Of a DNA stretch of 64,000 bases, positions 9,597 to 23,355 are shown in pieces. This stretch comes from an uncultured Bacillota bacterium. GTDB lineage: Bacteria > Bacillota_I > Bacilli_A > RFN20 > CAG-826. The translations under genes and the position numbers were made by a program. The stretch lies in assembly GCA_949298195.1 (NCBI GenBank), contig CASFVT010000007.1, forward strand, positions 1 through 64,000, given 5' to 3'. A model generated the notes under the pieces. That model saw only the letters and a list, made by a program, of their open reading frames with translations. It was not told the DNA's origin and searched no databases. Every line of letters starts with the position of its first letter. Position 1 is the first letter of the stretch.

Positions 9597-10757
9597 CTAG
9601 ATGCCCAAAGCCACCTTTAATGCCGTTGCGATGGCCCAAGACAGGTTGTAACCTCCGCAAAGGCCGTCGACATCAAGGATCTCGCCAAGCAAGTAAATTC
9701 CCCGTTCCCTCCTAGAGGAGAGACGCTCGTCGATTTCCTCGAGAGCGACTCCCCCATGGGTAACTTGGCTTTCCTCGAATCCAGAAGGCTTGAGTGGACG
9801 GAAAGTGAGATCCTTGGCCAATTCGGGTACCGCCTTCCCCTCCTTCTTGGATCGAGAGGCAAGATAATCGGCCAACTTCTCCTCAAAGATGCCAACTGGA
9901 AGAACAAGCCCCCGGGCTTGGGATACCGCGATTTTCCCGGCAAGCGATTCGAGGTCGATATCTGGAAATAAATCGAGATGGAGGAGGGAAGAATCCCAGG
10001 CATCGTCCCAAGTAAGGATGCTTGAAAGATTGAAAGCAAGAATCCCGCTCAAGCCGTCGTTCCGGAAGAGAATTTCTCCATCTTCGCTGTAAGGAACTCC
10101 GCCCGGCATTTCGAGGCGGGCCTTTACTTGGTGTCGCACCCCTTTCAAAACGCCGAGCCCACCATCTTTGACAATGATCGGCGACAAGGCGGGGCGAGGT
10201 ACGTTGATCTTATAACCATGTCTTCCGAGGAGGTCGAAGAAGGAACCGTCACTTCCAAGCCGCGGTGTTGAAGAACCGCCGGTGGCAATGAGGAGTTCGT
10301 CGAATGGTCCCGCCTGACCTTCGGAAGTGAGAAGACGATATCCTGCTCTACCAGGAAGGTAATCGAGGATACGCACCCCAAGGTGAAGCTTGGCTTTCGA
10401 AGCGAAGAGCAGTTTTTCAAGAAGCGAAACCAGCGTCGGTGCGCTATAGGAAAGAGGGTAGATGCCCTCCTTCCTCTCCATGAGGGGAAGGGGGAGACTC
10501 TCAAGTTCGGTCTTGAGTCTATTTAAAGGGAATTCCTTGAATATTGGTTCAACAAACGAAGATGAATAACGCTCACTAGAGAGGGTTTTTGCAAGGATAT
10601 TGCAGTGACCGTTCCCGGTAGCCCCCAACTTCCGGGCAAGTTTTCCCTCCTTCTCGAAAAGTTCGACTTCATACTCTGGGTGGTACTTCTTGACAAAAAG
10701 AGCGGAGAAGACCCCGCTCGCGCCGGCTCCGATGATGGCAACCCGTTTCGCCCTCAT
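9597..10757 (-). CDS. BaiN/HI0933-family NAD(P)/FAD-dependent oxidoreductase
   Basis: 386 residues. The FAD Rossmann motif GAGASGVFSAL is at residues 10-20 and the family signature KLGATGNGHCN at residues 43-53, with a second conserved block LIATGGSSTPRLGSDG near 155 and the C-terminal GEILDVDGLCGGYN. These mark the HI0933/BaiN group of flavoproteins. Members include bile-acid dehydrogenating enzymes, but most are uncharacterised, so no substrate is assigned. It overlaps gtrA by 4 bases (ATGA). Confidence 0.88.
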   Translation of the reverse strand: MRAKRVAIIGAGASGVFSALFVKKYHPEYEVELFEKEGKLARKLGATGNGHCNILAKTLSSERYSSSFVEPIFKEFPLNRLKTELESLPLPLMERKEGIYPLSYSAPTLVSLLEKLLFASKAKLHLGVRILDYLPGRAGYRLLTSEGQAGPFDELLIATGGSSTPRLGSDGSFFDLLGRHGYKINVPRPALSPIIVKDGGLGVLKGVRHQVKARLEMPGGVPYSEDGEILFRNDGLSGILAFNLSSILTWDDAWDSSLLHLDLFPDIDLESLAGKIAVSQARGLVLPVGIFEEKLADYLASRSKKEGKAVPELAKDLTFRPLKPSGFEESQVTHGGVALEEIDERLSSRRERGIYLLGEILDVDGLCGGYNLSWAIATALKVALGI

Positions 10758-11566
10758 TTTCGAGTCGCTGGATGGCTTTTCCAGAACTTGTCCAGTTCCT
10801 CTTCGGTCAAAAGCCTGGCCTCCTTCTCGGTAATGAGAAGCTGGCTTTTCCCGTAATAAGAGAGAAGTTCCTCGTGGATGATTTTCTGAAGTGATTCCCT
10901 GCTTGCAACACGGGAATCCGGATCTTCCACCGGCTGTTCTACCGGAGCCGCATTTTCCACGGCAACGATAGGCTCGCTCTCCTCATCCTTCGGGGCCTTG
11001 AAGATAATGAATTTCCGGGTCAAGTAGTTGTAGACGAGGGTCACACAGGTCTTGATGACGAAGATGATGAGGAAGGCCCAGAAGGCCATCCCGCCTTCAT
11101 TGAAGAGATCAACCCAGCTGACCTTCGAGATATCGAGCCCGATGTTGAGACCCCAATAGGTATCCGATAGGTAGACGCCAACTTCCTGGATGCCAAGTCC
11201 AATGAGCCATCCGCCGACGGCCAGAAAAAAGTAAATCCAGAAGACCTTTGCCCGACCGGTATCGATGTTCTTGTCGACGTTCTTGAAGACAAAGAAGCGG
11301 GAGAGAAGGTAATTGACGAGGCAAGAAATGACAAAACCGACCGTTACGGCAATCGCGAAACTTAGGTAGGTACCCCATTCTGCAATGGTCGAGAGATTAC
11401 TGGAGAACGCAAACACCAAGAGGTAGGAGACAGCAAAATCAATGACTGTGCAGACGATGCCAGTTATGAGAAAGCGGAACAATTCCCATGAAAGCTTCTT
11501 GTTATGGGGTTTCGTGGCTTTATCCGTGTTTTCCGGCGCGGTGGCGACATTCTCTGTTTGATTCAT
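10754..11566 (-). CDS. GtrA-like membrane protein with C-terminal cytoplasmic tail
   Basis: 270 residues from ATG 11566 (MNQTENVA). Four to five hydrophobic segments between residues 28 and 190 carry the GtrA pattern (FLITGIVCTVIDFAVSYLL, NYLLSRFFVFK). GtrA proteins are thought to flip lipid-linked sugars or take part in cell-surface polysaccharide synthesis. The ~80-residue charged C-terminal tail is longer than usual. A TAAAAT hexamer lies 7 bases upstream of this ATG; another in-frame ATG at 11575 would fall almost on the -10, which is why the inner start was chosen. Confidence 0.8.
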   Translation of the reverse strand: MNQTENVATAPENTDKATKPHNKKLSWELFRFLITGIVCTVIDFAVSYLLVFAFSSNLSTIAEWGTYLSFAIAVTVGFVISCLVNYLLSRFFVFKNVDKNIDTGRAKVFWIYFFLAVGGWLIGLGIQEVGVYLSDTYWGLNIGLDISKVSWVDLFNEGGMAFWAFLIIFVIKTCVTLVYNYLTRKFIIFKAPKDEESEPIVAVENAAPVEQPVEDPDSRVASRESLQKIIHEELLSYYGKSQLLITEKEARLLTEEELDKFWKSHPATRK

Positions 11567-11573
11567 ATCATGC

Positions 11574-11579
11574 ATTTTA
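11574..11579 (-). promoter_or_regulatory. extended -10-like element before the GtrA gene
   Basis: TGCTAAAAT on the minus strand, 7 bases from ATG 11566, with no ribosome binding site; likely leaderless. Confidence 0.4.
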
Positions 11580-11598: not shown

Positions 11599-13728
11599 TT
11601 ATAGGCTTTCAGCCTCGGAAATGAATATTTCTGCATCCGCGTCGCTTGGCAAACGGAGATCGCCGCGTGGCGAAACTGCGACCGTCCCCACTTTCGGCCC
11701 GTCAGGGAGGCAGTTTCTCTTGAATTGGCTGGCATAGAACCGCCGGTAGAAAACAAGGAGCCATTTCTTGATTTCTTCCGTTGAGTAAGAAGAAGCAAAT
11801 GCATGCTTGGCAAGGAAGAAGACCTTCTGAGGTCGGAAATGGAACCGGAGATGGTAATAAAGGAAGAAGTCATGAAGTTCGTAGGGTCCGATCTTGTCTT
11901 CGGTCACTTGGCTGATCGCTCCCTCTTCATCTAGGGGAAGAAGTTCTGGGGAGATAGGGGTATCGAGAATGTCATCCAAGGCTTTAGAGGTCTCCGGATG
12001 CTCAATCGAATATCCTCTGACTAGGTAGCGGACGAGGGTCTTGGGTATCGAGGCATTCACCCCGTACATCGACATGTGGTCGCCATTGTAAGTGCACCAT
12101 CCCAGACACAGCTCGCTAAGATCCCCAGTCCCGATCATGAGACCACCAATGTCGTTGGCAATGTCCATCAACACTTGAGTGCGTTCGCGCGCCTGGGCGT
12201 TTTCGTAGGCGGTATTAAGGGCACCACCGTGGCCGATATCATTTAGATGTATTTGTATACTTTTGGATATATTTATTTCTCGGAAAGATATACCAAGTGA
12301 TTGAGCCAGCAGGACAGCGTTGTCGTGTGTTCTCTGACTGGTACCAAAGCAAGGCATCGTGATGGCGATGAGGTCTTTTTTATCGAGTCCTGCTTTTTGA
12401 AAAGCCAGGTGCCCAACTAGGAGGGCAAGCGTGGAATCAAGACCTCCCGAAAGCCCGACGACGGCCTTCTTAGCTTTTACGGCCCGAAGGCGGTTTTTGA
12501 GTCCTTCGGCTTGCATATCAAGAATGGAATCAACCCGTTTCAAATCAATGTTGCCGGCTGGCATGAATGGATGTGGTTCATATTCCCTAAGGAGATTCGG
12601 TATGGTTGGCAAGGGCAATTTGAAAGGAACGTAAACGTAACTATCCCGGTAGCAATCGTTAAAGCAATTATTCTTTCGCCGCTCTGAATCTATTAATTCC
12701 AAATCTATGTCTGTTACAGCATTTTCCATCGCAAAAAGACCGCTTTCTTTCAAAATACGGCCATTTTCAGCAATTATCCCATGCCCTGCGAAAACCAGAT
12801 CAGACGTGCTTTCACCATCCCCGGCATCCGCGTAGACATAGGCTGATGTTTGCTTGGCCGAGGCCATTGAAACGAGGCGGCGGCGATAATCGGCCTTCCC
12901 GACGATCTCATTGGATGCGGAAAGGTTGGCAATCACAGTGGCACCCGCCAAAACATGTTCGGAAGATGGAGAATTGGGCACCCAGAGATCTTCGCAAATC
13001 TCGGCGGCCAACTGGAGTTTCGGGTAGCTTGAATCAATGAAGACAAGGCGGCTGCCGAACGGCACTTCATTCCCAAGGAAGCGAACAAGTTGATTGACCT
13101 TGGGAGCCGGTGAGAAATGTCGCGCTTCATAGAACTCCGCGTAGTTGGGAAGATTTGTTTTTGGAACGATTCCAAGTAAGCGACCACCTATAATTACAAA
13201 GGCACAGTTGTATATTCTGGATAAATGTCTAAAAGGTGCACCAACCACAAGGATTGCCTTCAATTCACGGGAAGCTTCGATGATTTTGGCAAGGCTTCTG
13301 ACCACTGCTTTCCAAAGGGCGTCATCCAAGAAGAGGTCGCCGGAGGTGTATCCGGTAAGAGAAAGCTCTGGGAAGACAATCAATGAAACATCTTTTTCGG
13401 CCAGGGACTTGCCAGTTTCAATGATCTCGTTTGCATTGCGGTCAGGGTTTCCGAGGTGAATGAAATGCGTCGCTGCGGCTACTCGGCAGAATCCCATGGC
13501 CGGGTCTTCAGTGAGGTCATCGATCTGTAGCGGTTCAGAATTCAACTTTTTTATGCTGGATTCCTCCGCCTCCTTTTTCCCTCTCAGGTCTTCATATTGC
13601 TCCGGCGAGAGGACGTAAAACTTGATCTTGCCGTTTTTGGCAATCGGGAGTTCTCCGTTCGACAGCTTCAAATCCTCTTCCAATCTGGTCACATCTCGAA
13701 GGGCAGTAATGGGTTCCGCGTTTTTCAT
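11599..13728 (-). CDS. nadE: glutamine-dependent NAD+ synthetase with N-terminal Phd/YefM-like domain
   Basis: 709 residues. Residues ~78-360 are a nitrilase-type glutaminase with catalytic Glu (VFPELSLTGY), Lys (PKTNLPNYAEFYE) and Cys (AAEICEDLWVPN). Residues ~410-700 are the synthetase with the ATP-binding SGGLDST motif. It amidates deamido-NAD using Gln. Ordinary enzymes start near residue 78 (MGFCRVAAATHFI). The extra N-terminus resembles Phd/YefM antitoxins (ITALRDVTRLEED, then LPIAKNGKIKFYVLSPEQYE). The start at 13728 is supported by TAATAT exactly 6 bases upstream. It is divergent from an ATP-grasp gene. Confidence 0.93.
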   Translation of the reverse strand: MKNAEPITALRDVTRLEEDLKLSNGELPIAKNGKIKFYVLSPEQYEDLRGKKEAEESSIKKLNSEPLQIDDLTEDPAMGFCRVAAATHFIHLGNPDRNANEIIETGKSLAEKDVSLIVFPELSLTGYTSGDLFLDDALWKAVVRSLAKIIEASRELKAILVVGAPFRHLSRIYNCAFVIIGGRLLGIVPKTNLPNYAEFYEARHFSPAPKVNQLVRFLGNEVPFGSRLVFIDSSYPKLQLAAEICEDLWVPNSPSSEHVLAGATVIANLSASNEIVGKADYRRRLVSMASAKQTSAYVYADAGDGESTSDLVFAGHGIIAENGRILKESGLFAMENAVTDIDLELIDSERRKNNCFNDCYRDSYVYVPFKLPLPTIPNLLREYEPHPFMPAGNIDLKRVDSILDMQAEGLKNRLRAVKAKKAVVGLSGGLDSTLALLVGHLAFQKAGLDKKDLIAITMPCFGTSQRTHDNAVLLAQSLGISFREINISKSIQIHLNDIGHGGALNTAYENAQARERTQVLMDIANDIGGLMIGTGDLSELCLGWCTYNGDHMSMYGVNASIPKTLVRYLVRGYSIEHPETSKALDDILDTPISPELLPLDEEGAISQVTEDKIGPYELHDFFLYYHLRFHFRPQKVFFLAKHAFASSYSTEEIKKWLLVFYRRFYASQFKRNCLPDGPKVGTVAVSPRGDLRLPSDADAEIFISEAESL

Positions 13729-13734
13729 GCCATT

Positions 13735-13740
13735 ATATTA
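13735..13740 (-). promoter_or_regulatory. -10-like element for leaderless nadE
   Basis: TAATAT on the minus strand, 6 bases before ATG 13728. The divergent 61-base gap also holds a direct repeat ATTAGC (13737-13742 and 13754-13759), possibly an operator. Confidence 0.4.
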
Positions 13741-13777
13741 GCATTATTTTGTCATTAGCCCTTATCGACCTGCTGAC

Positions 13778-13789: not shown

Positions 13790-14668
13790 ATGAGCAAAGG
13801 GCTGGCTATTCTCAATGGGTATTCACATCTTGAGGGGCCCGTCCACTTTTATGAAAGAATGAAAGAGGAACTGGCCGTCCTCAACGTCGGTCTCTCCGCA
13901 TGCAAGACCACGGATTTCCTCTCTTTGATCAAAGAAGACGGATCCATCGACATCCTTCCCGGCCTTTTTTCTTTCATCCTGTTCCTCGACAAGGATGCAT
14001 ACCTTTCCAAAGCCCTCGAAAAACAGCGTTATCGCCTTTTCAATACCGCAGAGGCAATACGTTTGAGTGATGACAAGATGCTGACGTATCTCCAACTTTC
14101 AAATCACGGTATTTCGATGCCCACGACGATTGGGGCTCCCCTCAATTATTCCGGCGGCTTCTCTTCTAGCTTCCTTGACCATGTGGAAAGGAAGCTCAGC
14201 TATCCCCTGATTGCCAAGGGCAGCTACGGCTCAATGGGACGTGAAGTGTCACTTGTTTCATCACGGATCGAGCTTGAGATTTATGAGAAAGAGCATGCAA
14301 AAACCCCTCATCTTTACCAAAAATACATTGAATCATCTAAGGGCGTTGATTATCGAATAATCGTCGTTGGTGGCCATGTCGTCACCGGCATGAAAAGGGA
14401 AAACCATGATGATTGGAGAAGCAACATCGCCCAAGGCGGAGTTGGGATAAAATGCGAGATTCCAGATGGCTATTCCTACGTAGCCGAGAAGGCCGCTTCT
14501 CTCATGGGCCTCGACTATGCCGGCGTCGACATCCTCATTGGGAAAAACGGCGAGCCGATTCTCTGCGAGGTCAATTCCAATGCCTTTTTGGACGGGATTG
14601 AGAAAACGACCGAGGTCAACGTCGCCGCCTCCTACGCGAGACACATCGTCAAGACCCTCGGCCTTTGA
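13790..14668 (+). CDS. RimK-like ATP-grasp ligase
   Basis: 292 residues with an ATP-grasp architecture: DDKMLTYLQLSNHGISMP near residue 93, the P-loop-like segment IAKGSYGSMGREVSLV near 145, YQKYIESSKGVDYRIIVVGG near 180 and the metal-binding Glu/Asn in ILCEVNSNAF near 265. RimK relatives attach glutamate or other amino acids to proteins or small molecules; the acceptor here is unknown. It is divergent from nadE with a leaderless-type promoter. Its 3' end overlaps the convergent phosphatase gene by 20 bases. Confidence 0.82.
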   Translation: MSKGLAILNGYSHLEGPVHFYERMKEELAVLNVGLSACKTTDFLSLIKEDGSIDILPGLFSFILFLDKDAYLSKALEKQRYRLFNTAEAIRLSDDKMLTYLQLSNHGISMPTTIGAPLNYSGGFSSSFLDHVERKLSYPLIAKGSYGSMGREVSLVSSRIELEIYEKEHAKTPHLYQKYIESSKGVDYRIIVVGGHVVTGMKRENHDDWRSNIAQGGVGIKCEIPDGYSYVAEKAASLMGLDYAGVDILIGKNGEPILCEVNSNAFLDGIEKTTEVNVAASYARHIVKTLGL

Positions 14669-15758
14669 TTTTTCGGAAAGCCCAGCTCAAGGCATTTTTG
14701 TCAGATTGAAACGTCAGGGCCTTCAAGGCTTCTTCGTACGGAAGAAAGCGGGCTTCTACAACTTCCTCCTGATCGCAGGTCAAGTCAATGTCGCCGTTCA
14801 CTTCGGCTACTGCGAACTCAACCCGCTTGATGTGGCCTTCCCTCGGAGAATAGACAATTGGATAACGCTCATCATCGAGGAAGCGATATGAAGATCGGTC
14901 GATGGATAGTTCTTCCTTTAGTTCGCGGTGGATCGTGGCCCATAGATCTTCATCGATCGCTTCCATGTGGCCCTTGGGGAGGGAGACATGGCCTAATCCC
15001 ATTTTCTCGATCAAGGCCTTCCCGTCCTTGAACAAAATGGCCCCATAGGAACGTTCTTGTGTTCCCAATAGGTTCGCCAGGCTCTCTCTTTCAACCTTGT
15101 TCAATCCGATGAAATTGAAATAATTGTCCATCGAACGGTATTTCGCAAAAAAGAGCTCTAGGAATTTCGGGAAGAAATCCGGTGATGGATAAAGGACGGC
15201 CCTTGGAAAGTCGGGATAGCTCTTCAGCGTCTCGTCTCTCGTGCGCTTCAATAATGGCAAAGACAGATAGTAATCCGCGCTTACGTCAACTTGATCAACC
15301 CCGTTTGCCAATAGAAGAAGAGCCACAAAAACGCCGGTGCGATCCTTCCCCGCCGTGCAATGAATGAGGAGGGGTTTTTCGCCGTTGATGAGGGCCCGGA
15401 AGATTCTCGCAGCGCTCACGGGTTCATCGATCATCTCGAAATAACTGTCCATCATGTCGTTTTCATCGACCGCGATACGCCCACCGCCATTGACGGGAAG
15501 AGCGTGGTATTCACGGATGTTCAGTAGCGACAAAGGGTCTGGATGTTCTTCCCGTACATCGTCGCTCCGGAGGTCGATGATCGTTTGGATATTCAAAGCA
15601 AAAAGAGAGGGAAGATCCCCCTCTTGCAGTTTCGAAATATCGGCTGAACGGTATATCGCCCCGAAGGAAGTGACCCCATAAGAGGCCCCGTAGCCCCCGA
15701 TGTCACGGAAGTTGTCTCCGTTTAAGAGGTCGATCCTCCGGAGCGGGATACCGGACAT
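14649..15758 (-). CDS. tyrosine/dual-specificity phosphatase fused to a Nudix hydrolase domain
   Basis: 369 residues from ATG 15758 (MSGIPLRRIDL). Residues 1-~235 are a Y_phosphatase3-type domain: NFRDIGGYGA near residue 15 and the catalytic P-loop HCTAGKDRTG near 140. Residues ~240-369 are a Nudix domain whose box is KGHMEAIDED followed by RELKEELSI, with one extra residue before the Glu and Ser in place of the final Gly. The phosphatase could act on phosphotyrosine or phosphoinositide-like substrates; the Nudix part cleaves nucleoside diphosphate-X compounds. It starts 7 bases after mscL, so they are co-transcribed. Confidence 0.82.
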   Translation of the reverse strand: MSGIPLRRIDLLNGDNFRDIGGYGASYGVTSFGAIYRSADISKLQEGDLPSLFALNIQTIIDLRSDDVREEHPDPLSLLNIREYHALPVNGGGRIAVDENDMMDSYFEMIDEPVSAARIFRALINGEKPLLIHCTAGKDRTGVFVALLLLANGVDQVDVSADYYLSLPLLKRTRDETLKSYPDFPRAVLYPSPDFFPKFLELFFAKYRSMDNYFNFIGLNKVERESLANLLGTQERSYGAILFKDGKALIEKMGLGHVSLPKGHMEAIDEDLWATIHRELKEELSIDRSSYRFLDDERYPIVYSPREGHIKRVEFAVAEVNGDIDLTCDQEEVVEARFLPYEEALKALTFQSDKNALSWAFRKIKGRGS

Positions 15759-15765
15759 GAAATGA

Positions 15766-16458
15766 CTACTCCGTCTTCTTTTCGACAGCTTCGGCCGTGG
15801 CCGCGTTCTTGGCCAATTGATCGCGAATCTGGAGAAGGACGTCGAGTTCGGTCGGTTTCGGGGCATCGGGTGCCACCGGAGCCGGGCGCTCCTCGGGATG
15901 ACGCTCGTAGTATTCCTCGCGGGCCTTGGCCGCAAGGGCTTCCCGCTTTTTCTGCAGATAGTTGAAGACCCGGACGATGACAAAGAGGGTGACGGCGATG
16001 ATCAGGAAGCTAATGATCGCGTTGATGAAGGTGCCCCAGTCGATGATGGCCGAGTTGTTGTAGTAGTAAGTCGAACCGTGGAGCGTGTACTTCGAAAGGA
16101 GCTCCGTTCTGGCCGCGACGATGTTGTCGGTCAGGTTGTTGAGTTCGGCGTAGGTTTCGGCCGCGGCCGTGATGGCATCGGGAGTCGCGGCAAAGGTCTG
16201 CCCGATTCCCTCAATGCCGGCTTGGGCCGGATTGGCCGCCGGAAGGACGGTGACGAGCCCAGAGATGCCACCCGGGACGCCCCAGGTGCAGACGCTCATC
16301 AAGATGGCGACGAACGCATTGACGATCGCGTTGAATGCCCCGCCGATGATAACGCCAACGGCGAGATCAAGAACCGATCCCCTCGAGATGAAGGCCTTGA
16401 ACGCTTCCCAAGTCTCCTTGACCTTGCCTTTGGCTTTTTTAGCTTTTTCTTTAGCCAT
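15766..16458 (-). CDS. mscL: large-conductance mechanosensitive channel MscL
   Basis: 230 residues. TM1 with the pore signature SRGSVLDLAVGVIIGGAFNAI lies at residues ~24-45 and TM2 at ~150-170 (FINAIISFLIIAVTLFVIV), ending in the cytoplasmic helix that begins YLQKK. Most MscL proteins are ~130-150 residues; here the external loop is ~90 residues and the C-terminal tail is Pro/Ala rich. ATG 16458 is chosen because it has GGAGG 10 bases upstream and begins the conserved region. The channel releases solutes on hypo-osmotic shock. Confidence 0.9.
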   Translation of the reverse strand: MAKEKAKKAKGKVKETWEAFKAFISRGSVLDLAVGVIIGGAFNAIVNAFVAILMSVCTWGVPGGISGLVTVLPAANPAQAGIEGIGQTFAATPDAITAAAETYAELNNLTDNIVAARTELLSKYTLHGSTYYYNNSAIIDWGTFINAIISFLIIAVTLFVIVRVFNYLQKKREALAAKAREEYYERHPEERPAPVAPDAPKPTELDVLLQIRDQLAKNAATAEAVEKKTE

Positions 16459-23199: not shown

Positions 23200-23355
23200 G
23201 TTTTCACCTCGGTTTTGATTTTAGCATCCGCCAGACTGGTCAAAGAGACAAAACCATGGCAGGAGAATGGCAAAAATTCTCTTTTCAGAAGCCATCGGAC
23301 ATCCTCTTTGTCAACCCCTTTCTTACACGACTTTCTCGATTAGAATGGGGCTCCC

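Follow-up and report, generated by a model that had tools for sequence, protein, structure and literature searches.

Antitoxins of the Phd/YefM family (PF02604), such as Escherichia coli YefM of the YefM-YoeB system, P1 Phd, and Axe, share an N-terminal fold with basic residues, and their own promoters carry palindromic boxes spaced by roughly one turn of the helix. YefM cannot bind DNA without residues R10 and R31, and the N termini of the family are dimerization domains (PMC4803016). At yefM-yoeB, two TGTACA cores with a 12-bp spacing lie over the promoter (PMC7730913), and both cores can be seen in the E. coli K-12 sequence. Known regulators of NAD genes include NiaR, NrtR, and the enzyme-repressor NadR (PMC6800001), as well as NadQ (PMC5343134). 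NadR of the Enterobacteriaceae combines a repressor with an NMN adenylyltransferase and a ribosylnicotinamide kinase (PMC6800001), and its targets include nadA-pnuC and others (PMC5343134). BirA (PMC5343134) and NrtR (PMC6800001) are likewise enzymes or enzyme-derived proteins that act as DNA-binding repressors, often of their own pathway. An enzyme that represses its own pathway is a known arrangement; building one from an antitoxin would be new. PutA, too, is an enzyme that doubles as a DNA-binding repressor, and we know of no antitoxin-derived Phd/YefM domain in BirA, PutA, or NrtR.

Here we analyzed a 64,000-nucleotide stretch of DNA (the window) in which an open reading frame of 709 codons with an ATG start (positions 11599..13728, minus strand) encodes a Phd-NadE fusion protein that has orthologous fusions in related genomes. 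The N-terminal fold, the basic residues, and the presence of closely spaced palindromic boxes over the promoter are shared with Phd/YefM antitoxins. Unlike these antitoxins, Phd-NadE has no toxin partner that we could find and no conserved toxin-binding tail, its Phd domain is joined to an essential enzyme of 630 amino acids, and its boxes are TGNCA at 11 bp rather than TGTACA at 12 bp. A close parallel in NAD metabolism is NadR, also a NAD-synthesis enzyme with an N-terminal repressor domain, although the DNA-binding domain and the enzyme both differ, and NadR has several targets whereas here the sole perfect-match site lies in the promoter region between nadE and a rimK-like gene. NadE catalyzes the final step of NAD synthesis; compared with glutamine-dependent NAD+ synthetase (NF002730; PRK02628), the whole enzyme part is alike and Phd-NadE adds an N-terminal DNA-binding domain. 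A literature search for NadE or NAD synthetase together with Phd/YefM returned no description of such a protein.

The Phd/YefM domain and the start of NadE

The C-terminal bulk of the protein (11599..13500, minus strand) comprises glutaminase (CN_hydrolase) and NAD synthase domains (PF00795, PF02540, NF002730). Profile NF002730 matched the 709-residue protein with 807 bits (cut-off, 473) from residue 76 to residue 707, covering profile positions 8 to 671 of 677, so the enzyme part belongs to this family. NadE proteins outside the order mostly start at what is residue 76 to 78 in window numbering; the window protein therefore carries about 76 extra N-terminal residues, in line with the earlier note, which had placed additional residues ahead of the normal NadE start. 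That note had also favored the long start and pointed to a TAATAT 6 nt upstream of its ATG. The hexamer is present, and the long start is borne out by domain conservation and by the adjoining promoter and operator. The chance that the stretch is untranslated, with translation beginning near residue 77 as in non-fused NadE proteins and the antitoxin resemblance an artifact, is practically nil, as the domain keeps 46% mean identity in frame across 62 fused proteins, promoter and operator adjoin the long ATG, and a ribosome-binding-site-like GGAGG precedes that ATG in two relatives (L109 and L186).

Against PF02604, window residues 1 to 77 scored 15.3 bits (E = 0.017; curated cut-off, 29.8 bits). 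The window domain is divergent, with A30, K34, K36, and Y38 where relatives mostly have T, Y, D, and V. In a whole-genome search of 61 relatives, orthologous fused N termini exceeded the cut-off (G004, 37.7 bits; G045, 36.8 bits; G059, 30.6 bits), each match lying within an open frame of about 710 amino acids. Nineteen of 20 fused N termini matched PF02604 at E ≤ 1 (best, 1e-9), and a profile built from these 20 retrieved both fused NadE proteins and stand-alone antitoxins of 77 to 110 amino acids from the same order. We then modeled residues 1 to 80 as a monomer with AlphaFold2 from an alignment of 46 rows, in which Phd relatives from viral contigs served as rows. The model showed a pLDDT of about 90 across residues 11 to 50, elements in the order H-H-E-E-H, and low confidence past residue 65. 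The first Foldseek hit was a prevent-host-death protein (probability, 0.97; E = 0.2), and Phd and YefM were also among the first hits; the E-values are weak (≥0.2) because the domain is small, about 50 residues, and the family assignment does not depend on Foldseek by itself. After VIA realignment, ranks 1 to 23 were all Phd/YefM-type or other antitoxin chains (Z, 5.7 to 3.6), with unrelated CBS-domain rows at Z ≤ 3.4. Operator-bound Phd was among the top structures in these comparisons. Taking profile matches and modeled structure together, we assign residues 1 to 50 (13579..13728, minus strand) to the Phd/YefM DNA-binding domains. The antitoxin likeness that the earlier note had read from the letters thus holds, through orthologous fusions above the PF02604 cut-off and through the AlphaFold2 model, for which Phd/YefM chains were retrieved first.

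The alignment of 62 fused proteins revealed which parts of this N terminus are kept. Mean pairwise identity was 46% for residues 1 to 48, 45% for the CN_hydrolase part, and 12% for residues 49 to 76. Residues P6, I7, L10, R11, K31, N32, and G33 were invariant or nearly so: R11 and G33 were found in 62 of 62 proteins and K31 in 61, with R in the remaining one. K31 aligned with YefM R31. R11 probably corresponds to YefM R10 or its neighbor, the gapless alignment being off by one residue, and the fused proteins would thus possess basic residues equivalent to those with which YefM binds DNA. They do not possess a conserved toxin-binding C-terminal segment. In its place, judging from the alignment, stands a variable linker (approximately residues 51 to 76; 13501..13578, minus strand).

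Operator and promoter of the fused gene

Aligned upstream regions of fused nadE genes share the array TGNCA-N6-TGNYA-N6-TGNCA. In the window, the candidate operator reads TGACA-AAATAA-TGCTA-ATATAA-TGGCA (13728..13754, minus strand), three TGNNA boxes 11 bp apart that overlap the -10 box and the first base of the ATG. Neighboring boxes form 16-bp inverted repeats (TGNCATAATTATGNCA), giving the adjacent palindromic boxes in the gene's own promoter that are typical of Phd/YefM loci. The middle box coincides with an extended -10 element (TGC-TAATAT, 13735..13740, minus strand; family consensus, TGCTATAAT), as read from the sequence, and part of the motif is therefore promoter rather than operator. 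From this arrangement, the nadE mRNA would be leaderless or nearly so, with transcription starting at or next to the ATG. Across the window, 5 of 64 open reading frames of at least 180 amino acids have a -10-like hexamer 4 to 9 nt before the ATG and 29 have ribosome-binding-site-like motifs; the window may mix leaderless and leadered genes. The divergent intergenic region is 61 bp long, as the earlier note had stated, but the ATTAGC direct repeats that it had pointed to there show no conservation as an operator; what is conserved is the TGNCA array, which contains one of the two GCTAAT copies.

Of the 28 fused promoters from the genus, 19 matched at least 11 of the 12 motif positions, compared to 0.04% of dinucleotide shuffles; the rows compared are related species, so that counts are not independent events, and training across genera is the fairer test. 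None of 89 upstream regions of non-fused nadE genes reached 10 of 12 positions. A position matrix trained exclusively on fused promoters from other genera (n = 40; consensus, ttaCATAATTATGCTATAATaATGtc) separated the de-duplicated fused promoters of the genus from 209 other open reading frames with an AUC of 0.993. The window site scored 24.3 bits, with the best negative at 8.6 and the negative median at -13.9. These 209 frames, together with the 89 non-fused nadE genes, rule out a generic-promoter artifact as the source of the motif. The array varies among relatives: seven have two boxes instead of three (L094, L101 to L105, and L108), one has a 10-bp spacing between the first two boxes (L082), and in other genera the matrix gave low scores to about 20% of the fused promoters.

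The perfect array occurs once in the 1.22-Mb genome, and allowing one mismatch adds two further places. A search of 25 genomes from the genus yielded six perfect sites, of which five lie at a fused nadE. We considered a second target at an RmuC gene (23246-23272), which has one mismatch and a matrix score of 8.6 bits, and judged it a chance match. A regulon beyond nadE and its divergent neighbor was also rejected, there being no other perfect match in the genome.

The same array precedes the nearest stand-alone antitoxin genes, both in the same order (L194, L214, and L216) and elsewhere in the class (L256, L257, and L258), and the matrix reached an AUC of 0.974 on 39 stand-alone antitoxin promoters. 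Many of these antitoxin genes have a ParE/RelE-like open reading frame directly downstream, at a distance of -20 to 0 bp; the two downstream frames that we compared with PF05016 scored 37.3 and 44.8 bits (cut-off, 23). On these sequence comparisons, we regard the operator of the fused genes as that of the ancestral toxin-antitoxin (TA) system. One antitoxin subgroup with the N terminus MQIVPxRDLKDT (L213, L217, L220, L226, and L228) is preceded by an element of another kind, longer and palindrome-like (TGTGGCTAAATATAGTATATAATTAAGTCACA), and operator type may track antitoxin subfamily. Scanning viral contigs with the fused domains gave no match; scanning them with stand-alone antitoxins identified 79 viral contigs with Phd relatives of the stand-alone type (L274 to L352).

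Regulatory role of the fused domain

Apart from the domain on NadE, no Phd protein was detected in the window genome at PF02604 E ≤ 1, and no ParE-family toxin was found with PF05016, in an assembly about 96% complete and a genome-wide toxin search that covered ParE/RelE-type toxins only. Given both results, NadE itself is the obvious predicted ligand of the operator. The earlier note's suggestion that NadE autoregulates through its N-terminal domain at the divergent promoter gains support at the sequence level from the operator shared with TA loci, the basic residues, and the lack of another Phd protein. In our judgment, it is likely that a domesticated Phd/YefM domain with a retained operator makes NadE a self-repressing enzyme comparable to NadR or BirA, with no toxin involved. 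A chromosomal phd-type gene would have been joined to nadE in an ancestor within the order; the toxin and the toxin-binding tail would have been dropped, while the promoter-operator of the antitoxin stayed upstream of the fusion. The Phd domains of two NadE subunits would form a pair that contacts the TGNCA boxes, set 11 bp apart, across the -10 element and the start codon. Bound NadE would then block RNA polymerase sterically, resulting in negative autoregulation of nadE and probably also of the divergent RimK-like gene, and a NadE oligomer engaging more than one box would bridge neighboring operator sites, the part played by the toxin in TA complexes. That the effect would be repression rather than activation is suggested by the operator position and by analogy to TA systems.

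It is conceivable, though rather doubtful, that Phd-NadE is in addition a direct sensor-repressor, in which occupancy of the active site by nicotinate adenine dinucleotide (NaAD), ATP, glutamine, or NAD+ alters how far apart or how flexible the Phd pairs of the oligomer are, and with that how firmly they hold the operator. If so, the enzyme would gauge how much NAD is available and adjust its own transcription accordingly, NadE would take the part of the toxin in conditional cooperativity, and NAD status would spill into TA control where ParE TA operons have the same operator.

Autoregulation was weighed against three other roles for the translated domain. Because Phd/YefM N termini dimerize, the domain could be an assembly module alone, with another regulator binding the operator. 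We consider this improbable: the operator is common to stand-alone Phd loci and absent upstream of the non-fused nadE genes, a perfect copy is kept in a genome with no second Phd protein detected, and conservation extends to the basic R11 and K31 rather than to core residues alone. Cross-talk could instead dominate where fused and stand-alone proteins coexist, with a stand-alone Phd repressing nadE or Phd-NadE repressing TA operons, as the same operator type lies ahead of nadE and of TA operons in the order and class. Several genomes, including that of the window, nevertheless keep the operator with the fused copy as their sole PF02604 match, making this quite improbable as the main role; in other genomes, such cross-talk may be compatible with autoregulation. 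The third role, raised in the earlier note, is that of a guard, in which the domain neutralizes a toxin that would be released when NadE is lost or attacked, for instance by phage. Phd/YefM domains do neutralize toxins in TA systems, and ParE/RelE-type toxins follow the nearest stand-alone relatives. However, the genes flanking the fusion are GtrA-like, HI0933-like, and RimK-like, so that no cognate toxin gene is adjacent, as the note itself had observed; the window genome has no ParE-family gene by PF05016 search; where a genus-mate has a ParE match alongside a fused nadE, they sit on separate contigs; and it is the operator and the DNA-binding residues that selection has preserved, the linker having replaced the toxin-binding segment. 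A guard function is thus very improbable.

If autoregulation is the correct reading, this locus is a clear case of a TA repressor that was domesticated together with its operator and joined to an enzyme essential for metabolism, and relatives that are still TA systems can be recognized within the order and the class. NAD synthesis would gain a regulator distinct from NadR, NiaR, NrtR, and NadQ, with an exact predicted binding site, and the locus would suggest how an orphan antitoxin can turn into a regulator of metabolism.

Neighboring genes and distribution of the fusion

The gene sharing the 61-bp region with nadE (13790..14668, plus strand) encodes a RimK-family ATP-grasp ligase (PF08443, 119 bits; TIGR00768) and is the divergent neighbor in 28 of 63 fused loci. 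It is probably a second target under the same control as nadE. A TATAAT lies 6 nt before its ATG, which suggests that its transcript is leaderless. On the other side, a GtrA-like membrane protein gene (10754-11575, minus strand) begins 23 bp after nadE on the same strand; 26 of 63 fused loci have such a gene in this downstream position, and from this arrangement the two likely form an operon. A frame at 14649-15905 (minus strand) combines tyrosine-phosphatase-like (PF13350) and NUDIX domain matches, and 17 of 63 fused loci have a relative of it on the upstream side of nadE.

A survey of NadE homologs for the same fusion, a check proposed in the earlier note, covered 279 genomes of the order and detected it in about 70 of them, 29 in the genus of the window and about 41 elsewhere, across four families. 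In a tree built from the NadE part only, the 62 fused sequences formed one clade (SH-aLRT, 97), with eight non-fused NadE sequences from the same order outside it; the simplest reading of this tree is that the fusion arose once within the order. Outside the order, no fusion was seen among the matches listed for a class sample (395 genomes) and a phylum sample (392 genomes), all of which lay in short frames of 44 to 206 amino acids, that is, stand-alone antitoxins. Within the genus, some genomes lack the fusion (G021, G011, G018, G025, and G032). In four of these (L238 to L241, from G011, G018, G032, and G025), the NadE match covers only the synthase part, with about 51% identity from residue 386, in open frames of about 560 to 577 amino acids that carry no Phd domain. 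By sequence, these four have another type of NadE, the enzyme apparently having been replaced within the genus.
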